Positions 41,752 to 53,003 of a stretch of DNA of 64,000 nt are shown piece by piece. The DNA lies in assembly GCF_002744755.1 (NCBI RefSeq), contig NZ_KZ319295.1, positions 1 to 64,000 of the forward strand. Direction: 5' to 3'. Each line of letters begins with the position of its first letter. The first letter of the stretch is position 1. The position numbers and the translations under genes are program-made. The notes beneath the pieces were generated by a model. That model did not search any database. It was not told where the DNA came from and worked only from the letters and a program-made list of their open reading frames with translations. This DNA is from Leeuwenhoekiella nanhaiensis (GTDB lineage: Bacteria > Bacteroidota > Bacteroidia > Flavobacteriales > Flavobacteriaceae).

Positions 41752-43484
41752 ATTTTAAACTACTGAAACCTTTAGGATTTATACTGACATTTATTCTGGT
41801 TTTAAATTCCTGCAAAACCGAACAAAAACAGCCACGCAGCATTCAGCGCGGAAAACTTGCAGATAGCATTATGGTGGTTTCGGCCCGTGAAGAAGCTTCG
41901 CGTATAGGCGCCGAAATCCTAAAACAAGGTGGTAATGCCTTTGATGCGCTCATAGGTGTTGATATGGCGCTTAATGTTGCCTATCCCTTTGCCGGAAGCC
42001 TGGGCGGCGGTGGTTTTATGGTGTACCGCAAAGCCAACGGCGAGATTGGCAGCATCGACTACCGCGAGAAAGCCCCTATAGCTGCCACGCACGATATGTA
42101 TCTGGACGAAAACGGCGATGCCATCGCTTCTTTGAGTCGTGAAGGAGCGCTGGCTGTGGGCGTTCCGGGAACCATTGCCGGGATGTTTGCCATTCACGAA
42201 AAGCTGGGATCTATGCCGATGGCTGAGATCCTTGAACCGGTTATTGCTCTGGCCGAAAAAGGCTATGTAGTAACCGAAAATCAATGGAATCGCTATCGCA
42301 ATTACGCCGCGGTTTTTGACAGTATTAACGGGATGGAAACCCTCTATTCGGTAGGTTTTCGCGAAAGTGACAGCCTTAAAGTCAAAGCGGGTGACACCAT
42401 TAAAAACCCCGTGCTGGCCGCTACGCTGAGACGCATTGCGCAAAACGGAAAAAGTGAATTCTACGAAGGCGAGACCGCTCAGAAGTTGGTCAACTTTATG
42501 CAAAAACATGGAGGAATCATCACGCTCGAAGACCTTAAAAACTACGAAGCAGTCTGGCGGAGACCCATCGTTTCCAGCTATAAAAATTTGAAAATCATCG
42601 GGATGCCGCCACCATCAAGCGGCGGCGTTTGTCTGGCACAGATCTTTAAAATGATTGAACCCTACAAACTGAGCACCTACGGGCACAATTCGCTCAAAAG
42701 CATTCAGGTGATTACCGAAGCCGAACGTCGCGCTTATGCCGACCGCAGTTTTTTTCTGGGCGATCCCGACTTTAACGATATTCCCATTGAAACGCTCATC
42801 AGCACCGAATATGCAACAGAACGTATGGAGAATTTTAGCTTTAAGCAGGCAACGCCTTCTTCTGAGGTTGAGCATGGCGTAATCCCCGGCTATGAGTCTA
42901 TGGAAACCACGCATTTCTCGATTGTTGATCAATATGGTAATGCGGTTGCCCTTACCACTACCCTCAACGGCGCCTACGGTTCTAAGCTGTATGCAGACGA
43001 ACTCGGCTTTTTCCTGAACAACGAGATGGATGATTTTAGTGTAAAACCCGGAGTGCCTAATATGTTTGGCCTTATTGGCGCGGCGGCAAATAAAATCGAA
43101 CCTCAAAAACGCATGCTGAGCTCGATGACGCCTACCATTGTAGAAAAAGACGGTAAACTTTGGATGACGGTAGGTACGCCGGGCGGTTCGACTATAATTA
43201 CTTCGGTGTTGCAAACGATTCTGAATGTAGCCGATTTTGAAATGGGTATGCAGGAAGCGGTAGACGCCCCCAGATTTCATCATCAGTGGCTGCCCGATGT
43301 GGTTACCTTCGAACCCAATACCTTTGGGAAATCGCTTTTAGATAGCCTGGCGGCGAAAGGATACCAGATTCGTCAGGAAAACAGCGTTATTCTAGGAAAA
43401 GTAGACGGTGTACTCGTCTTACCTGACGGAACCCTGGAAGGTGGTGCAGACCGTCGCGGAGACGATACTGCTGTTGGTTATTGA
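41748..43484 (+). CDS. ggt: Gamma-glutamyltransferase, lipoprotein form
   Basis: Cleaves gamma-glutamyl bonds, for example in glutathione, in the periplasm. The start MNFKLLKPLGFILTFILVLNSC is a lipoprotein signal (lipobox LNSC, Cys23). It is a proenzyme that cuts itself before Thr387, in the motif ETTHFSIVDQYGNAV. The large subunit has GGSL-type residues (SLGGGGFMVYR near 90) and DYREKAP, and the small subunit has SSMTPTIV and GTPGGSTIIT. 578 residues, usual length. It is translationally coupled to the phosphodiesterase gene. Its stop codon lies 3 bases before the first of the palindromes upstream of satD. Confidence 0.94.
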   Translation: MNFKLLKPLGFILTFILVLNSCKTEQKQPRSIQRGKLADSIMVVSAREEASRIGAEILKQGGNAFDALIGVDMALNVAYPFAGSLGGGGFMVYRKANGEIGSIDYREKAPIAATHDMYLDENGDAIASLSREGALAVGVPGTIAGMFAIHEKLGSMPMAEILEPVIALAEKGYVVTENQWNRYRNYAAVFDSINGMETLYSVGFRESDSLKVKAGDTIKNPVLAATLRRIAQNGKSEFYEGETAQKLVNFMQKHGGIITLEDLKNYEAVWRRPIVSSYKNLKIIGMPPPSSGGVCLAQIFKMIEPYKLSTYGHNSLKSIQVITEAERRAYADRSFFLGDPDFNDIPIETLISTEYATERMENFSFKQATPSSEVEHGVIPGYESMETTHFSIVDQYGNAVALTTTLNGAYGSKLYADELGFFLNNEMDDFSVKPGVPNMFGLIGAAANKIEPQKRMLSSMTPTIVEKDGKLWMTVGTPGGSTIITSVLQTILNVADFEMGMQEAVDAPRFHHQWLPDVVTFEPNTFGKSLLDSLAAKGYQIRQENSVILGKVDGVLVLPDGTLEGGADRRGDDTAVGY

Positions 43485-43487
43485 TTT

Positions 43488-43509
43488 TTATCGCTTCTAA
43501 AAACGATAA
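43488..43509. promoter_or_regulatory. 22-bp palindrome A (TTATCG-N10-CGATAA)
   Basis: TTATCG at 43488-43493 and CGATAA at 43504-43509 with a 10-base spacer CTTCTAAAAA. It abuts the ggt stop. Confidence 0.6.
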
Positions 43510-43515
43510 TTCAAT

Positions 43516-43537
43516 TTATTGCCTTTGGATACGATAA
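43516..43537. promoter_or_regulatory. 22-bp palindrome D (TTATTG-N10-CGATAA, one mismatch)
   Basis: TTATTG at 43516-43521 and CGATAA at 43532-43537. It starts 28 bases after site A. The right spacer end GGATA resembles the other sites. Confidence 0.5.
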
Positions 43538-43621
43538 TGTGGGGTTGTTATTTGTTAATTGTTAAGCGTTAATGGGTTATTCTACAAAATCTAAATTCTG
43601 AATGGATTAGTCAGTTATTTC

Positions 43622-43649
43622 TTGTTTATTGTTTATTGTTTATTGTTTA
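43622..43649 (+). repeat. Tandem heptamer repeat (TTGTTTA, four copies)
   Basis: Four exact copies of TTGTTTA in a row. The region carries similar degenerate motifs on both sides. Such a tract can change length by slippage. Confidence 0.8.
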
Positions 43650-43762
43650 AAATAATCCAGCATTCTGCATTCTTAATTCTAAATTGATTACTGATTTATT
43701 AATTATTCAGTTATTATAACGGAAAACGGTAAACAGTAAACCAAGAACTAAACCCCTTGCAA

Positions 43763-43784
43763 TTATCGCATTATAATACGATAT
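43763..43784. promoter_or_regulatory. 22-bp palindrome B (TTATCG-N10-CGATAT)
   Basis: TTATCG at 43763-43768 and CGATAT at 43779-43784 around CATTATAATA, which extends the symmetry inward. Confidence 0.6.
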
Positions 43785-43790
43785 TTACCA

Positions 43791-43812
43791 TTATCGTTTC
43801 TAAATACGATAA
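43791..43812. promoter_or_regulatory. 22-bp palindrome C (TTATCG-N10-CGATAA)
   Basis: TTATCG at 43791-43796 and CGATAA at 43807-43812. It starts 28 bases after site B, the same phasing as A to D, and ends 9 bases before the ATG of the satD-like gene, where binding should block expression. Confidence 0.6.
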
Positions 43813-43821
43813 TAAACACTT

Positions 43822-44415
43822 ATGACCGCTATACTAACTGCAGATATCATCAATTCGCGAACGCAGCAAAACTGGCTTCCGGTATTGAAAGCCGTACTTA
43901 ACCGTCTGGGTGACGAGCCCAAAGCCTGGGAGATTTACCGGGGCGACAGCTTTCAGCTTGAGGTAAAACCTACAGAAGCCCTTTATTCCGCCTTGCTCAT
44001 CAAAAGCGCAATTAAAAGTCTGGAAGGCATAGACGTACGCATCGCTATAGGTCTGGGAGACAAGACTCACGACGCAGCTAAAATCACCGAAGCTAACGGA
44101 AGCGCTTTTGTAAACAGCGGCACCTGTTTTGACCGACTCAAAAAACAAACCCTCGCCCTGCAAAGCGAGCTTGCTGATTTTGACACACAATTCAACCTCA
44201 TTCTTGAATTGGCCTGCCTGACCATGGACAACTGGACGCCGGTGAGCGCGCAGGTGTTTCACCAAAAGCTGCTGCACCCGCAGCTCAATCAAACCGAACT
44301 GAGCGAGATGCTGGGCAAATCGCAAAGCACCATTAGCGCTACCCTGCACCGCGCGGGATATGACGAACTCACCAAAATGCTTCAGCACTACAGCCAAACC
44401 TTAAACAATCACTAA
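43822..44415 (+). CDS. SatD-family protein with C-terminal helix-turn-helix
   Basis: 197 residues. The N-terminal part, MTAILTADIINSRTQQNWLPVL, then WEIYRGDSFQLEV and VRIAIGLGDK, is that of SatD-like proteins, with a fold resembling nucleotide cyclase domains. The C-terminal 45 residues (LNQTELSEMLGKSQSTISATLHRAGYDEL) read as a helix-turn-helix. It is most likely a DNA-binding regulator controlled by an unknown ligand, and the palindromes directly upstream suggest it regulates itself. The DUF3307 gene follows with no gap after its stop. Confidence 0.75.
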   Translation: MTAILTADIINSRTQQNWLPVLKAVLNRLGDEPKAWEIYRGDSFQLEVKPTEALYSALLIKSAIKSLEGIDVRIAIGLGDKTHDAAKITEANGSAFVNSGTCFDRLKKQTLALQSELADFDTQFNLILELACLTMDNWTPVSAQVFHQKLLHPQLNQTELSEMLGKSQSTISATLHRAGYDELTKMLQHYSQTLNNH

Positions 44416-45156
44416 ATGCTCGCACTCGCTCTGAAATTGCTGCTCGCTCACATTCTGGGAGACTTTGTACTGCAGCCCACCCGCTGGGTAAAAGACAAGC
44501 GCAAAAAGGGTTTTCGCTCGCCGTATCTGTTGGCGCACATCGGCGTACATCTGCTGGCTTTGCTGGTGCTTTTGCAGTTTGACAGCCGCTATTTTTTAGG
44601 CATCGCCTTTATAGGCATTACCCACTACGCTATAGACCTGCTTAAGATCAGATACACGACCAAAAAGAACAGTACCTCATTATTTATTGCAGATCAGGTT
44701 GCGCATCTGCTGGTGCTCAATCTGGCGCTGTATTACTACACGCCTTATACGATAGACTTTGATGCGCTGTACCAGCCTCTAGTTTTGCTGGTGCTCACCC
44801 TTTTGTTTTTTGTAACCTATGTTGCCGGGATTTTAATGCGGCTTATTTTACAACCCTGGCAGGAAGCCATCGAACCTTCTAAAAAGGAAAAACTCAAGGT
44901 CAAAAACACCTCTCTGGCCGGTGCCGGAAAAATCATTGGGATGCTCGAGCGCCTGTTTGTTTTCGCTTTTATCCTGCTCAACGCCTGGTCTGCAATAGGC
45001 TTTTTGATCACGGCTAAGTCGGTTTTACGTTTTGGGGATCTTACCGAAGGAAAAAACCGCCAGCTTACCGAATATGTATTGATAGGAACCCTCCTCAGCT
45101 TTGGTCTGGCCATAGGCGCCGGACTGCTCTTTAACTACCTGCTCCCGTATTTATAG
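44416..45156 (+). CDS. DUF3307 membrane protein
   Basis: 246 residues with about six hydrophobic helices. The start LALALKLLLAHILGDFVLQPTRWVKDKRKKGFRSPYLLAHIGVH is the DUF3307 signature, with several conserved His and Asp residues in helices. Function unknown. The start codon directly follows the satD-like stop, so the pair is an operon. SatD plus DUF3307 is a recurring pair in my recollection of Bacteroidota and Firmicutes genomes. Confidence 0.82.
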   Translation: MLALALKLLLAHILGDFVLQPTRWVKDKRKKGFRSPYLLAHIGVHLLALLVLLQFDSRYFLGIAFIGITHYAIDLLKIRYTTKKNSTSLFIADQVAHLLVLNLALYYYTPYTIDFDALYQPLVLLVLTLLFFVTYVAGILMRLILQPWQEAIEPSKKEKLKVKNTSLAGAGKIIGMLERLFVFAFILLNAWSAIGFLITAKSVLRFGDLTEGKNRQLTEYVLIGTLLSFGLAIGAGLLFNYLLPYL

Positions 45157-51551: not shown

Positions 51552-53003
51552 ATGAACAAACCCGTTGCATTCCTTCTTCTACTGTTGTTAACTACCGTTT
51601 CCGCAAGCGCACAACAGACCGAAACTTATGATTATGCGCTTTCAAGCCGAAAACTCATTCAGCATGGTGTGCAGGCGATTCTTACCTGCAACGGACTTTT
51701 CACTTCAAACCGAACGCTGGAGCAGGTTTACGATCAGGAACTTGCCTATTTAGAAGAGCCGGTGGGCACAGCAGCGGGTGGGGATTATGTGATTGATTAT
51801 AAAAACAAAACCGTGACCATCGCGGCCAGCGACAGCACTTCCATTATGCGGGCGGCGTACCGGGCAGGCATTGGCTGTGTGATTCTTCCGCCCAATCAAA
51901 CTTTTGAAATCATCGAAGAACTTCCCAAGCAACAGCTTGCGCCCCTTTCGGGAGATGCGGCCAGTATTCCCTGGCCTGACGGGGATTTGACCAAAAAACA
52001 AAAACTACCCAAATACATCGATAAAAAGCTACTGCAAGAAGCCTCTGACTGGTCTTTTAACAGGGAAAGCGAAGAGCAGGTCACCCTCAGCCTGCTTGTG
52101 CTGCATAAAGGTCAAATCATTCACGAGCGCTATGCCGAGGGCGTTGACATGCATACCAAAACACGCACCTGGTCTGTTGCCAAAAGTATTGCCGTGACCC
52201 TGATCGGGATGCTGGTTGATGCGGGCAAAATGGAGCTCGACGTGCCTCTGGGTATTGAATGGCTGCCGAAAGAACGCAGTTCAGCTAACGATCCGCGGGA
52301 TGCGATCACCTTACGAAATGTGCTGAATATGTCTAGCGGACTCTACACGGTGGACAGCCGCGGGATGGAATATGCCACCGGCTCGGGGCTTTCCTATTGG
52401 GCGGGCGCGAGTTCGGCAAACGGCGCACGCGACCGCGGACTCATCCGCAATCCCGGGACCTATTGGGATTATGAAAACTACGATACCCTATTGGCTGTTT
52501 TGGCGATGAAGAATGCGCTGGGTGATGCCACTACCTATCTCGAATTTCCCCGGAAAGCCCTATTTGACCAAATCGGAATGCGGAATACCCTGGTAGGAAC
52601 AGACCGGTTTGGCGATTTTATATTGAGCAGTCAGGTGTATGCCTCTGCGCGCGATCTGGCGCGTTTTGGCCTGCTTTACGAGCAAAACGGAATGTGGAAC
52701 GGCAAACGCCTGCTATCTCAAGAGTGGATTGATTTTGTACGTACACCCACCACGGCTGCGGGGCAGGTCAATTCGTTATACGGTGGGCAGTGGTGGCTGG
52801 TAGACGACTCCCGCGATGATGTGCCTAAAGATGCCTATGCCGCACGGGGCAACCGCGGGCAGTATGTGGTTGTGGTGCCTTCCCGGGATCTGGTGATCGT
52901 AAGACGCGGCCTTGATTATGGCCGTCAGGGATTTGACGTTTGGGACCTTACACGGGAAGTGGTTAAGGCATTACCGGAGGATTATGTTTCGGAGGGGGAA
53001 TAG
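51552..53003 (+). CDS. Exported serine hydrolase (class C beta-lactamase fold)
   Basis: Signal peptide MNKPVAFLLLLLLTTVSASAQ. The nucleophile motif SVAK is at 208-211 (S-x-x-K) and YEN near 315 (Y-x-N); the third box is near YAARGNRGQ (HTG-like position altered). 483 residues is longer than simple beta-lactamases because of an N-terminal region (30-170) of unknown role. Such proteins are often peptidases, esterases or penicillin-binding proteins. Single gene. Confidence 0.85.
   Translation: MNKPVAFLLLLLLTTVSASAQQTETYDYALSSRKLIQHGVQAILTCNGLFTSNRTLEQVYDQELAYLEEPVGTAAGGDYVIDYKNKTVTIAASDSTSIMRAAYRAGIGCVILPPNQTFEIIEELPKQQLAPLSGDAASIPWPDGDLTKKQKLPKYIDKKLLQEASDWSFNRESEEQVTLSLLVLHKGQIIHERYAEGVDMHTKTRTWSVAKSIAVTLIGMLVDAGKMELDVPLGIEWLPKERSSANDPRDAITLRNVLNMSSGLYTVDSRGMEYATGSGLSYWAGASSANGARDRGLIRNPGTYWDYENYDTLLAVLAMKNALGDATTYLEFPRKALFDQIGMRNTLVGTDRFGDFILSSQVYASARDLARFGLLYEQNGMWNGKRLLSQEWIDFVRTPTTAAGQVNSLYGGQWWLVDDSRDDVPKDAYAARGNRGQYVVVVPSRDLVIVRRGLDYGRQGFDVWDLTREVVKALPEDYVSEGE

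Follow-up and report, generated by a model that had tools for sequence, protein, structure and literature searches.

A palindrome array with a conserved 28/29-bp period upstream of satD-like/DUF3307 operons covaries with the recognition helix of the SatD-like protein

Introduction

Restriction-modification C proteins and phage repressors act as local autoregulators, the DNA site coevolving with the protein that binds it. For MerR regulators, the correlation between factor and site is among the subjects of PMC5045206. The satD-like/DUF3307 operon described here resembles these systems in having a candidate operator at its own operon, a changing specificity and a correlation between helix residues and operator bases, but differs from them in a tandem pitch fixed at 28/29 bp over many genera and in the predicted cyclase-like N-terminal domain of its putative regulator.

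The SatD family, PF16264, takes its name from satD in the sat operon of Streptococcus mutans, and its similarity to the protein under study is weak (residues 22-178, E 6.3e-5, 23.2 bits); because this score lies below the curated gathering score of 29 bits, we refer to the protein as SatD-like (SatD for short). In its predicted fold and in two aspartates expected to bind metal it somewhat resembles the palm domains of class III cyclases, Cas10 and GGDEF proteins, from which it differs in being fused to a putative DNA-binding helix-turn-helix, the fold scores being modest. Pycsar and Panoptes are defence operons of two genes, one for a nucleotide synthase and one for a membrane effector, and the layout here is similar, with a gene for a protein of predicted palm fold ahead of one for a putative membrane protein; a palm fold and two putative active-site aspartates are among the features given for OptS/mCpol of Panoptes in PMC12657218 and PMC12657230. 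Unlike these systems, SatD carries a helix-turn-helix and adjoins a candidate operator array, in chromosomal neighbourhoods that look ordinary by eye. A literature search at the level of listings found no description of an operator for the SatD family, in line with the first-pass annotation of this DNA, which knew of none.

Results

In the window, by which we mean the whole 64,000-nucleotide stretch of Leeuwenhoekiella nanhaiensis DNA that was analysed, the region between ggt (frame end at 43484) and the satD-like gene (43822-44415, forward strand) carries four palindromic units, to which no strand is assigned. Unit 1 (TTATCGCTTCTAAAAACGATAA; 43488-43509) lies 3 bases past the end of the ggt frame and is followed 28 bp on by unit 2 (TTATTGCCTTTGGATACGATAA; 43516-43537); together they form an upstream pair separated from a proximal one, unit 3 (TTATCGCATTATAATACGATAT; 43763-43784) and, again 28 bp further, unit 4 (TTATCGTTTCTAAATACGATAA; 43791-43812), by a strandless spacer at 43538-43762. 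A recount agreed with the first-pass annotation that all four sites match TTATYG-N10-CGATAW (0 mismatches at each), that both pairs are spaced 28 bp start to start with 6-base gaps, that the spacer is AT-rich (225 bases, 72.9% AT), and that the final palindrome ends 9 bases 5' of the satD-like ATG at 43822. Units 3 and 4 stand at -59 and -31 from the ATG in the window and in the loci of its two closest relatives (L008 and L009), both of which have also retained units 1 and 2. Short direct repeats are present in the spacer (a run of TTGTTTA around 43622-43648), which is not of constant length among close relatives.

As a spaced set, the four palindromes are far above chance. With at most one mismatch, TTATYG-N10-CGATAW has nine strand-wise matches in the window, eight of them at the four sites, as against 1.48 on average and never more than 6 in 100 dinucleotide shuffles. 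A genome-wide search with the two-site pattern (28-bp spacing, at most three mismatches) gave six places, and one with the reversed control a single place; two of the six have no mismatch, both at this array, one has a single mismatch (contig C28) and three have three mismatches, one of these inside the window at 52461-52508. The single 22-mer (at most one mismatch) gives 100 forward matches genome-wide versus 76 for the reversed control, and the rarity thus belongs to the spaced pair rather than to the single 22-mer. The place on contig C28 (C28:1604-1651, or L175:1501-1548) consists of another two TATCG palindromes with starts 28 bp apart, situated where two convergent frames end; an integrase-like frame is present on the same contig, and the pair is possibly a second SatD site, or else a product of chance.

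The SatD-like protein, whose nearest named relative is the SatD of L. parthenopeia (96% identity), was modelled with a pLDDT of 90.9 and a pTM of 0.90. Its N-terminal domain (residues ~1-115) is class III cyclase/palm-like in the model, and the C-terminal helix-turn-helix noticed in the first pass is placed at residues ~140-195, with residues 168-178 as the modelled recognition helix. The best Foldseek match had a probability of 1.00, an E of 1.7e-3 and TM-scores of 0.36-0.43, the search yielding no match at E <=0.001 and TM-scores of ~0.3-0.45 overall; the best PDB fold matches include the adenylyl cyclase MA1120, the cUMP synthase 7r65, Cmr2/Cas10 and GGDEF domains, and the N-terminal domain as predicted resembles class III cyclases and Cas10. 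Asp8 and Asp42, assumed from their position to bind metal, are found in 180/180 orthologs (217 and 218, respectively, of 219 records). A sequence search of solved structures with SatD returned two weak matches to SOX-17 (E 1.2 and 1.6).

The DUF3307 gene (44416-45156, forward strand; PF11750, 102 bits against a cut-off of 23) follows satD without a gap (44415/44416), as the first reading had it, and occupies the same position on the same strand in 217 of the 219 records. Its product, all-helical and hydrophobic by eye, is probably a membrane protein, and near-invariant His, Asp, Glu and Arg residues suggest a metal site. The model of DUF3307 is of low confidence (pLDDT 67.4) and a fold search with it found no meaningful match.

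Orthologs were gathered with a profile built from 28 SatD proteins, which found matches in 164 of the 249 genomes sampled from the family and in 77 of the 296 sampled from the phylum, and by a single-protein search that matched in 31 of 60 relatives. The resulting 229 loci were reduced to 219 non-redundant records, window included, and divided by a score cut of our own into 180 orthologs (tier A), 22 more distant proteins (tier B) and 17 remote ones (tier C). Left out of the fetch were genome G015 (one single-protein match), 9 of 19 distant matches and the weaker matches of the family search, part of which were unlisted, while 5 of the 48 rows of the phylum search had no locus and are hence not among the fetched records.

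A palindrome period of 28/29 bp is significant against shuffles in 160 of the 180 tier A records, as compared to 7 of 180 for control periods of 25/33, and a significant 28/29 pair is present in 20 of 22 tier B and 5 of 17 tier C records (controls, 1 and 2). When all periods from 21 to 40 were compared, the best was 28 in 148 of the tier A records and 29 in 11, with 10 ties or none; in tier B it was 29 in 15 and 28 in 5, and in tier C 29 in 5, 28 in 2 and none in 7. The 200 bp immediately 5' of satD in 160 records contain 273 exact 6-bp inverted repeats of span 20 versus 11.1 in shuffles, 140 of span 48 (20+28) versus 9.2 expected, and 199 22-bp palindromes versus 22. Distances between palindromes in these 160 records cluster at 14 (47), 28 (28), 42 (22) and 56 (15), each being reached 0.0-0.1 times in shuffles; distance 14 occurs because the gaps in a 28-bp palindrome array are symmetry centres too. 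Sequence identity is 0.468 at lag 28 and 0.401 at lag 56, the mean over lags 8-60 being 0.324. The window array is therefore the local form of a widespread feature.

Contiguous arrays were retrieved by a finder that considers contiguous chains only within the last 260 bases upstream, and misses split arrays elsewhere. Of the tier A records, 28 of the 180 lacked a clear 28-bp array and were dropped; the remaining 152 comprise 86 arrays of three units, 40 of four, 21 of two, three of five and two of six; the final unit lies within 8 bases of the start codon in 60 of the 152. Among the 20 tier A orthologs in which the test against shuffles found no significant 28/29 array are L019, L022, L023 and L027, which make up four of the seven records of a second Leeuwenhoekiella specificity.

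Whether the same phasing recurs upstream of other satD genes thus has a two-part answer: the 28/29-bp period is kept in most, and the TTATCG letters proposed in the first pass are mostly not conserved. Literal conservation of TTATCG was set aside as a test, the motif missing from most orthologs, and period and covariation were used instead; a test on the letters would wrongly reject the idea because they change with the protein.

Half-site positions h1-h3 are T, A and T in 94, 96 and 99% of cases (n=152), partly by construction as the finder rewards TAT, whereas h4-h6 vary. The 24 majority triplets at these three positions are TAG, AAG, CGT, TAC, TCC, CTG, CGG, CAC, ATG and fifteen rarer ones, nine being present in at least five records. 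Ranking the 197 SatD columns by excess mutual information with h4-h6 places residue 173 on top (1.95 bits), followed by 167, 169, 179 and 170 (1.03 to 0.89 bits; median of all columns 0.18), and all five lie in or beside the modelled recognition helix. Individual residue-base contrasts were picked after inspection of the 152 records: Ser or Thr at 170 goes with G at h5 (31/34 versus 2/118 others), Gln173 with AG (43/49 versus 0/103), Lys173 with C at h5 (20/27 versus 0/125) and Arg173 with AC (11/11 versus 15/141). It is mainly from this covariation of h4-h6 with recognition-helix residues that we infer binding of the array by SatD.

The covariation persists when the N-domain is controlled for. 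In a partial Mantel test on five helix positions, themselves selected by the mutual-information ranking on the same data, site distance correlates with helix distance given the N-domain at 0.438 (0 of 1000 permutations as high), and with N-domain distance given the helix at 0.047; the remainder of the helix-turn-helix also correlates with the sites (0.342), as does the N-domain (0.310). Among pairs of records whose N-domains differ at more than half of their positions, site distance is 0.28-0.31 where the helix has 0-1 differences (38 pairs) and 0.72 where it has five (2001 pairs). On a FastTree tree of the N-domain, the site triplet changes at least 61 times and residue 173 at least 35 times. 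Phylogenetically independent pairs, counted over all branches of this tree with a pairing script of our own, gave 12.7 pairs in the same direction, 0 opposite and 1.3 without difference for Ser/Thr170, 8.4, 0 and 3.6 for Lys173, and 11.4, 0.5 and 4.0 for Glu173. In all six all-branch tests the pairs agree or show no difference, apart from the 0.5 opposite in one; Gln173 and Arg173 stay below significance even on all branches, and when the count is restricted to well-supported branches each test retains 1-3 pairs, a number too small to reach it. Two records, L039 and L089, have arrays mixing half-site types (TTCC and TCAC) and are perhaps in mid-switch.

Changes of specificity seem to occur at fixed genomic places. 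A peptide pattern of the ggt end lies upstream of satD in nine Leeuwenhoekiella records that fall into two specificity classes, with helices Gln-Ser-Thr-Ile-Ser and Gln-Ser-Ala-Ile-Ser, the arrays of the second class being less regular; another Leeuwenhoekiella genome (L030) has a third class, CTG. Twenty loci were retrieved together with 10-20 kb of sequence, and in eight of them the divergent neighbour looks, by its sequence, like mscL; one of the eight (L269, genome G147) is of the CTG class, and others are TAG. As both classes occur beside the same neighbour, protein and site seem to change together at one place. At these loci (L260, L263, L264 and L267-L271) the array is situated between satD and the divergent mscL-like gene, so SatD might also affect the latter.

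Class-specific 48-base pair patterns (at most three mismatches, a search that passes over single or more diverged sites) were sought in 26 chosen genomes, and all of their matches lie at satD: CAC in 8/8, TCC in 10/10 and TAG in 8/8 genomes. The patterns were absent from 5, 3 and 5 other genomes, respectively (13 genome-by-pattern tests), and the reversed patterns gave 0 matches in the genomes searched. Further operators of SatD thus seem to be few or absent.

Discussion

The period, the covariation with the helix and the uniqueness of the pair at satD make it very probable that side-by-side SatD dimers occupy the array and that SatD controls the operon encoding it, and we are accordingly confident in regarding the palindromes as the operator of the satD-DUF3307 operon, bound by the SatD-like protein itself. 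A self-regulated unit with one dimer per palindrome, as first suggested from the window, is strongly supported on sequence grounds by the agreement of helix and half-site and by the 28/29-bp period. Through its C-terminal helix-turn-helix, one SatD dimer would contact each palindrome of 20-22 bp, made up of TAT, three bases of specificity, some eight more bases and the mirror image. Adjacent dimers at a fixed 28-bp pitch would probably touch, such that occupancy would climb steeply with the level of SatD; since three units span 84 bp, or eight turns at 10.5 bp, successive dimers would step one third of a turn round the helix. The position of the proximal pair just upstream of the satD start codon makes autorepression the most likely outcome, and the cyclase-like domain may tune DNA binding through a nucleotide. 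That the letters vary while pitch and layout stay fixed can be understood if protein and sites are able to change together, as would be possible for a regulator with seemingly few or no other operators.

The first-pass annotation had further proposed cooperation of the pairs, perhaps through a DNA loop across the spacer. The window shares both pairs with its two closest relatives, and an archaeal satD likewise has two pairs as read by eye, but the distal pair starts 275, 326 and 122 bp upstream of the proximal one in the window, L008 and L009, respectively, distances that share no helical phase at 10.5 bp per turn. Because the pair-to-pair distance differs among the three, the loop is unsupported; we set aside one of fixed geometry on account of this variation and consider such cooperation improbable. 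The simplest reading of the window layout, and one that accounts for it more simply than a loop, is a four-unit array divided by a spacer of changing length.

Palindromes are common sites of regulators in general, and a different cellular protein might bind the array with SatD merely as its target; the specificity bases, however, covary with the recognition helix of SatD above its other columns, also once the N-domain is controlled for, and the class-specific pair is confined to satD in the 26 chosen genomes, rendering this very unlikely. Weak matches of SatD to HTH_ParB (E 0.0087) and Noc (E 0.024), together with the occurrence of relatives on plasmids, could point to a partition-like site or an iteron, which we hold to be most unlikely given that equally weak ParB/Noc matches are common for any helix-turn-helix and that in 20 chromosomal loci and the window the array adjoins satD among genes that, on inspection by eye, are unremarkable. 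Transcripts of perfect inverted repeats would likewise be able to pair, but pairing in RNA gives no reason to expect a pitch of 28/29 bp or a covariation with the helix of a DNA-binding protein, and hairpins of the attenuator or terminator kind are hardly credible here.

Rather unlikely, in our estimate, is a further alternative in which the array activates transcription or switches among several start sites instead of simply repressing it. The Bacteroidetes -7-like promoter consensus is TAnnTTTG. In favour of the operator reading itself, this motif comes at one constant phase after the unit in 65 of 419 cases versus 60 of 2742 other TA positions; against an overlap of operator and promoter, only 47 of the 152 records have the motif at that phase, and the window has none between 43480 and 43821. 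It follows units at several places in the array (the last in 28 cases, the next in 22, then 11 and 4), as start-site switching would have it. The term for the Bacteroidetes -7 element occurs in PMC6847099. Against this alternative stands the nearness of the final unit to the start codon, within 8 bases in the 60 arrays mentioned above. Although activation or start-site switching has these several positions of the motif in its favour, simple autorepression by SatD remains the preferred reading. An operator close to the start codon is more typical of repression.

The array provides an entry point to SatD-like and DUF3307, two proteins of unknown function whose genes adjoin each other in nearly all of the studied records. 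It also offers a natural table of protein-DNA recognition within one family, with the operator adjoining the gene, 24 majority triplets and four or five helix residues; the constant 28/29-bp lattice and the readable link to the helix make the recognition code directly testable by helix swaps. We further entertain, as a tentative idea more likely wrong than right, that SatD-DUF3307 is an unrecognised nucleotide-signalling module with a layout like that of Pycsar and Panoptes, in which a nucleotide synthase or sensor doubles as the dedicated repressor of the operon that encodes it, the array is released once the nucleotide is lost or altered, and DUF3307 floods the membrane. If true, the trigger of release would be a loss or change of nucleotide, for example upon infection or stress. 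Membership of the window pair in a listed defence system was rejected: neither window protein has a match in PADLOC 2.0.0 (whose library dates from 2023, the Panoptes papers being of 2025), and the neighbours of the 20 loci and the window look ordinary by eye. The small-plasmid SatD has weak PADLOC matches to CARF-HTH models over its helix-turn-helix.

The pair is chromosomal in many Bacteroidota and plasmid cargo elsewhere, down to 3.8-kb and archaeal plasmids. The neighbourhoods of the 20 chromosomal loci and the window were judged by eye from clusters shared by at least four loci. Plasmid-borne satD-like/DUF3307 pairs were found in Pseudoalteromonas, Vibrio lentus, Sphingomonas, Pseudomonas fragi and Enterobacter, on small Klebsiella and E. 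coli plasmids, in Segatella copri (a Bacteroidales) and in the archaeon Haloplanus; an archaeal relative adjoining DUF3307 carries the SatD family annotation, and in Salinivibrio the gene before DUF3307 is satD-like by eye only. Read by eye, the upstream palindromes have a 28-bp spacing in Pseudoalteromonas, in V. lentus, where there are three units, and in Segatella, where unit 2 is degenerate; the spacing is 29 bp in Enterobacter, with palindromes of 17 bp, and in Haloplanus, which again has two pairs; the repeats are irregular on the small E. coli plasmid, and inspection by eye of the upstream regions of P. fragi, Sphingomonas and Salinivibrio showed no clear palindromes. Searches for SatD in phage records, for the small-plasmid DUF3307 in phages and for the small-plasmid pair in complete E. 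coli genomes returned no match. On the E. coli/Klebsiella plasmids L243 (pEC34A, 3770 bp) and L244, satD-like and DUF3307 constitute most of the annotated non-backbone content. On the Sphingomonas plasmid (L248:944-8434), the neighbours of the pair carry the annotations TIR, ImmA/IrrE, Pycsar effector and cyclase.
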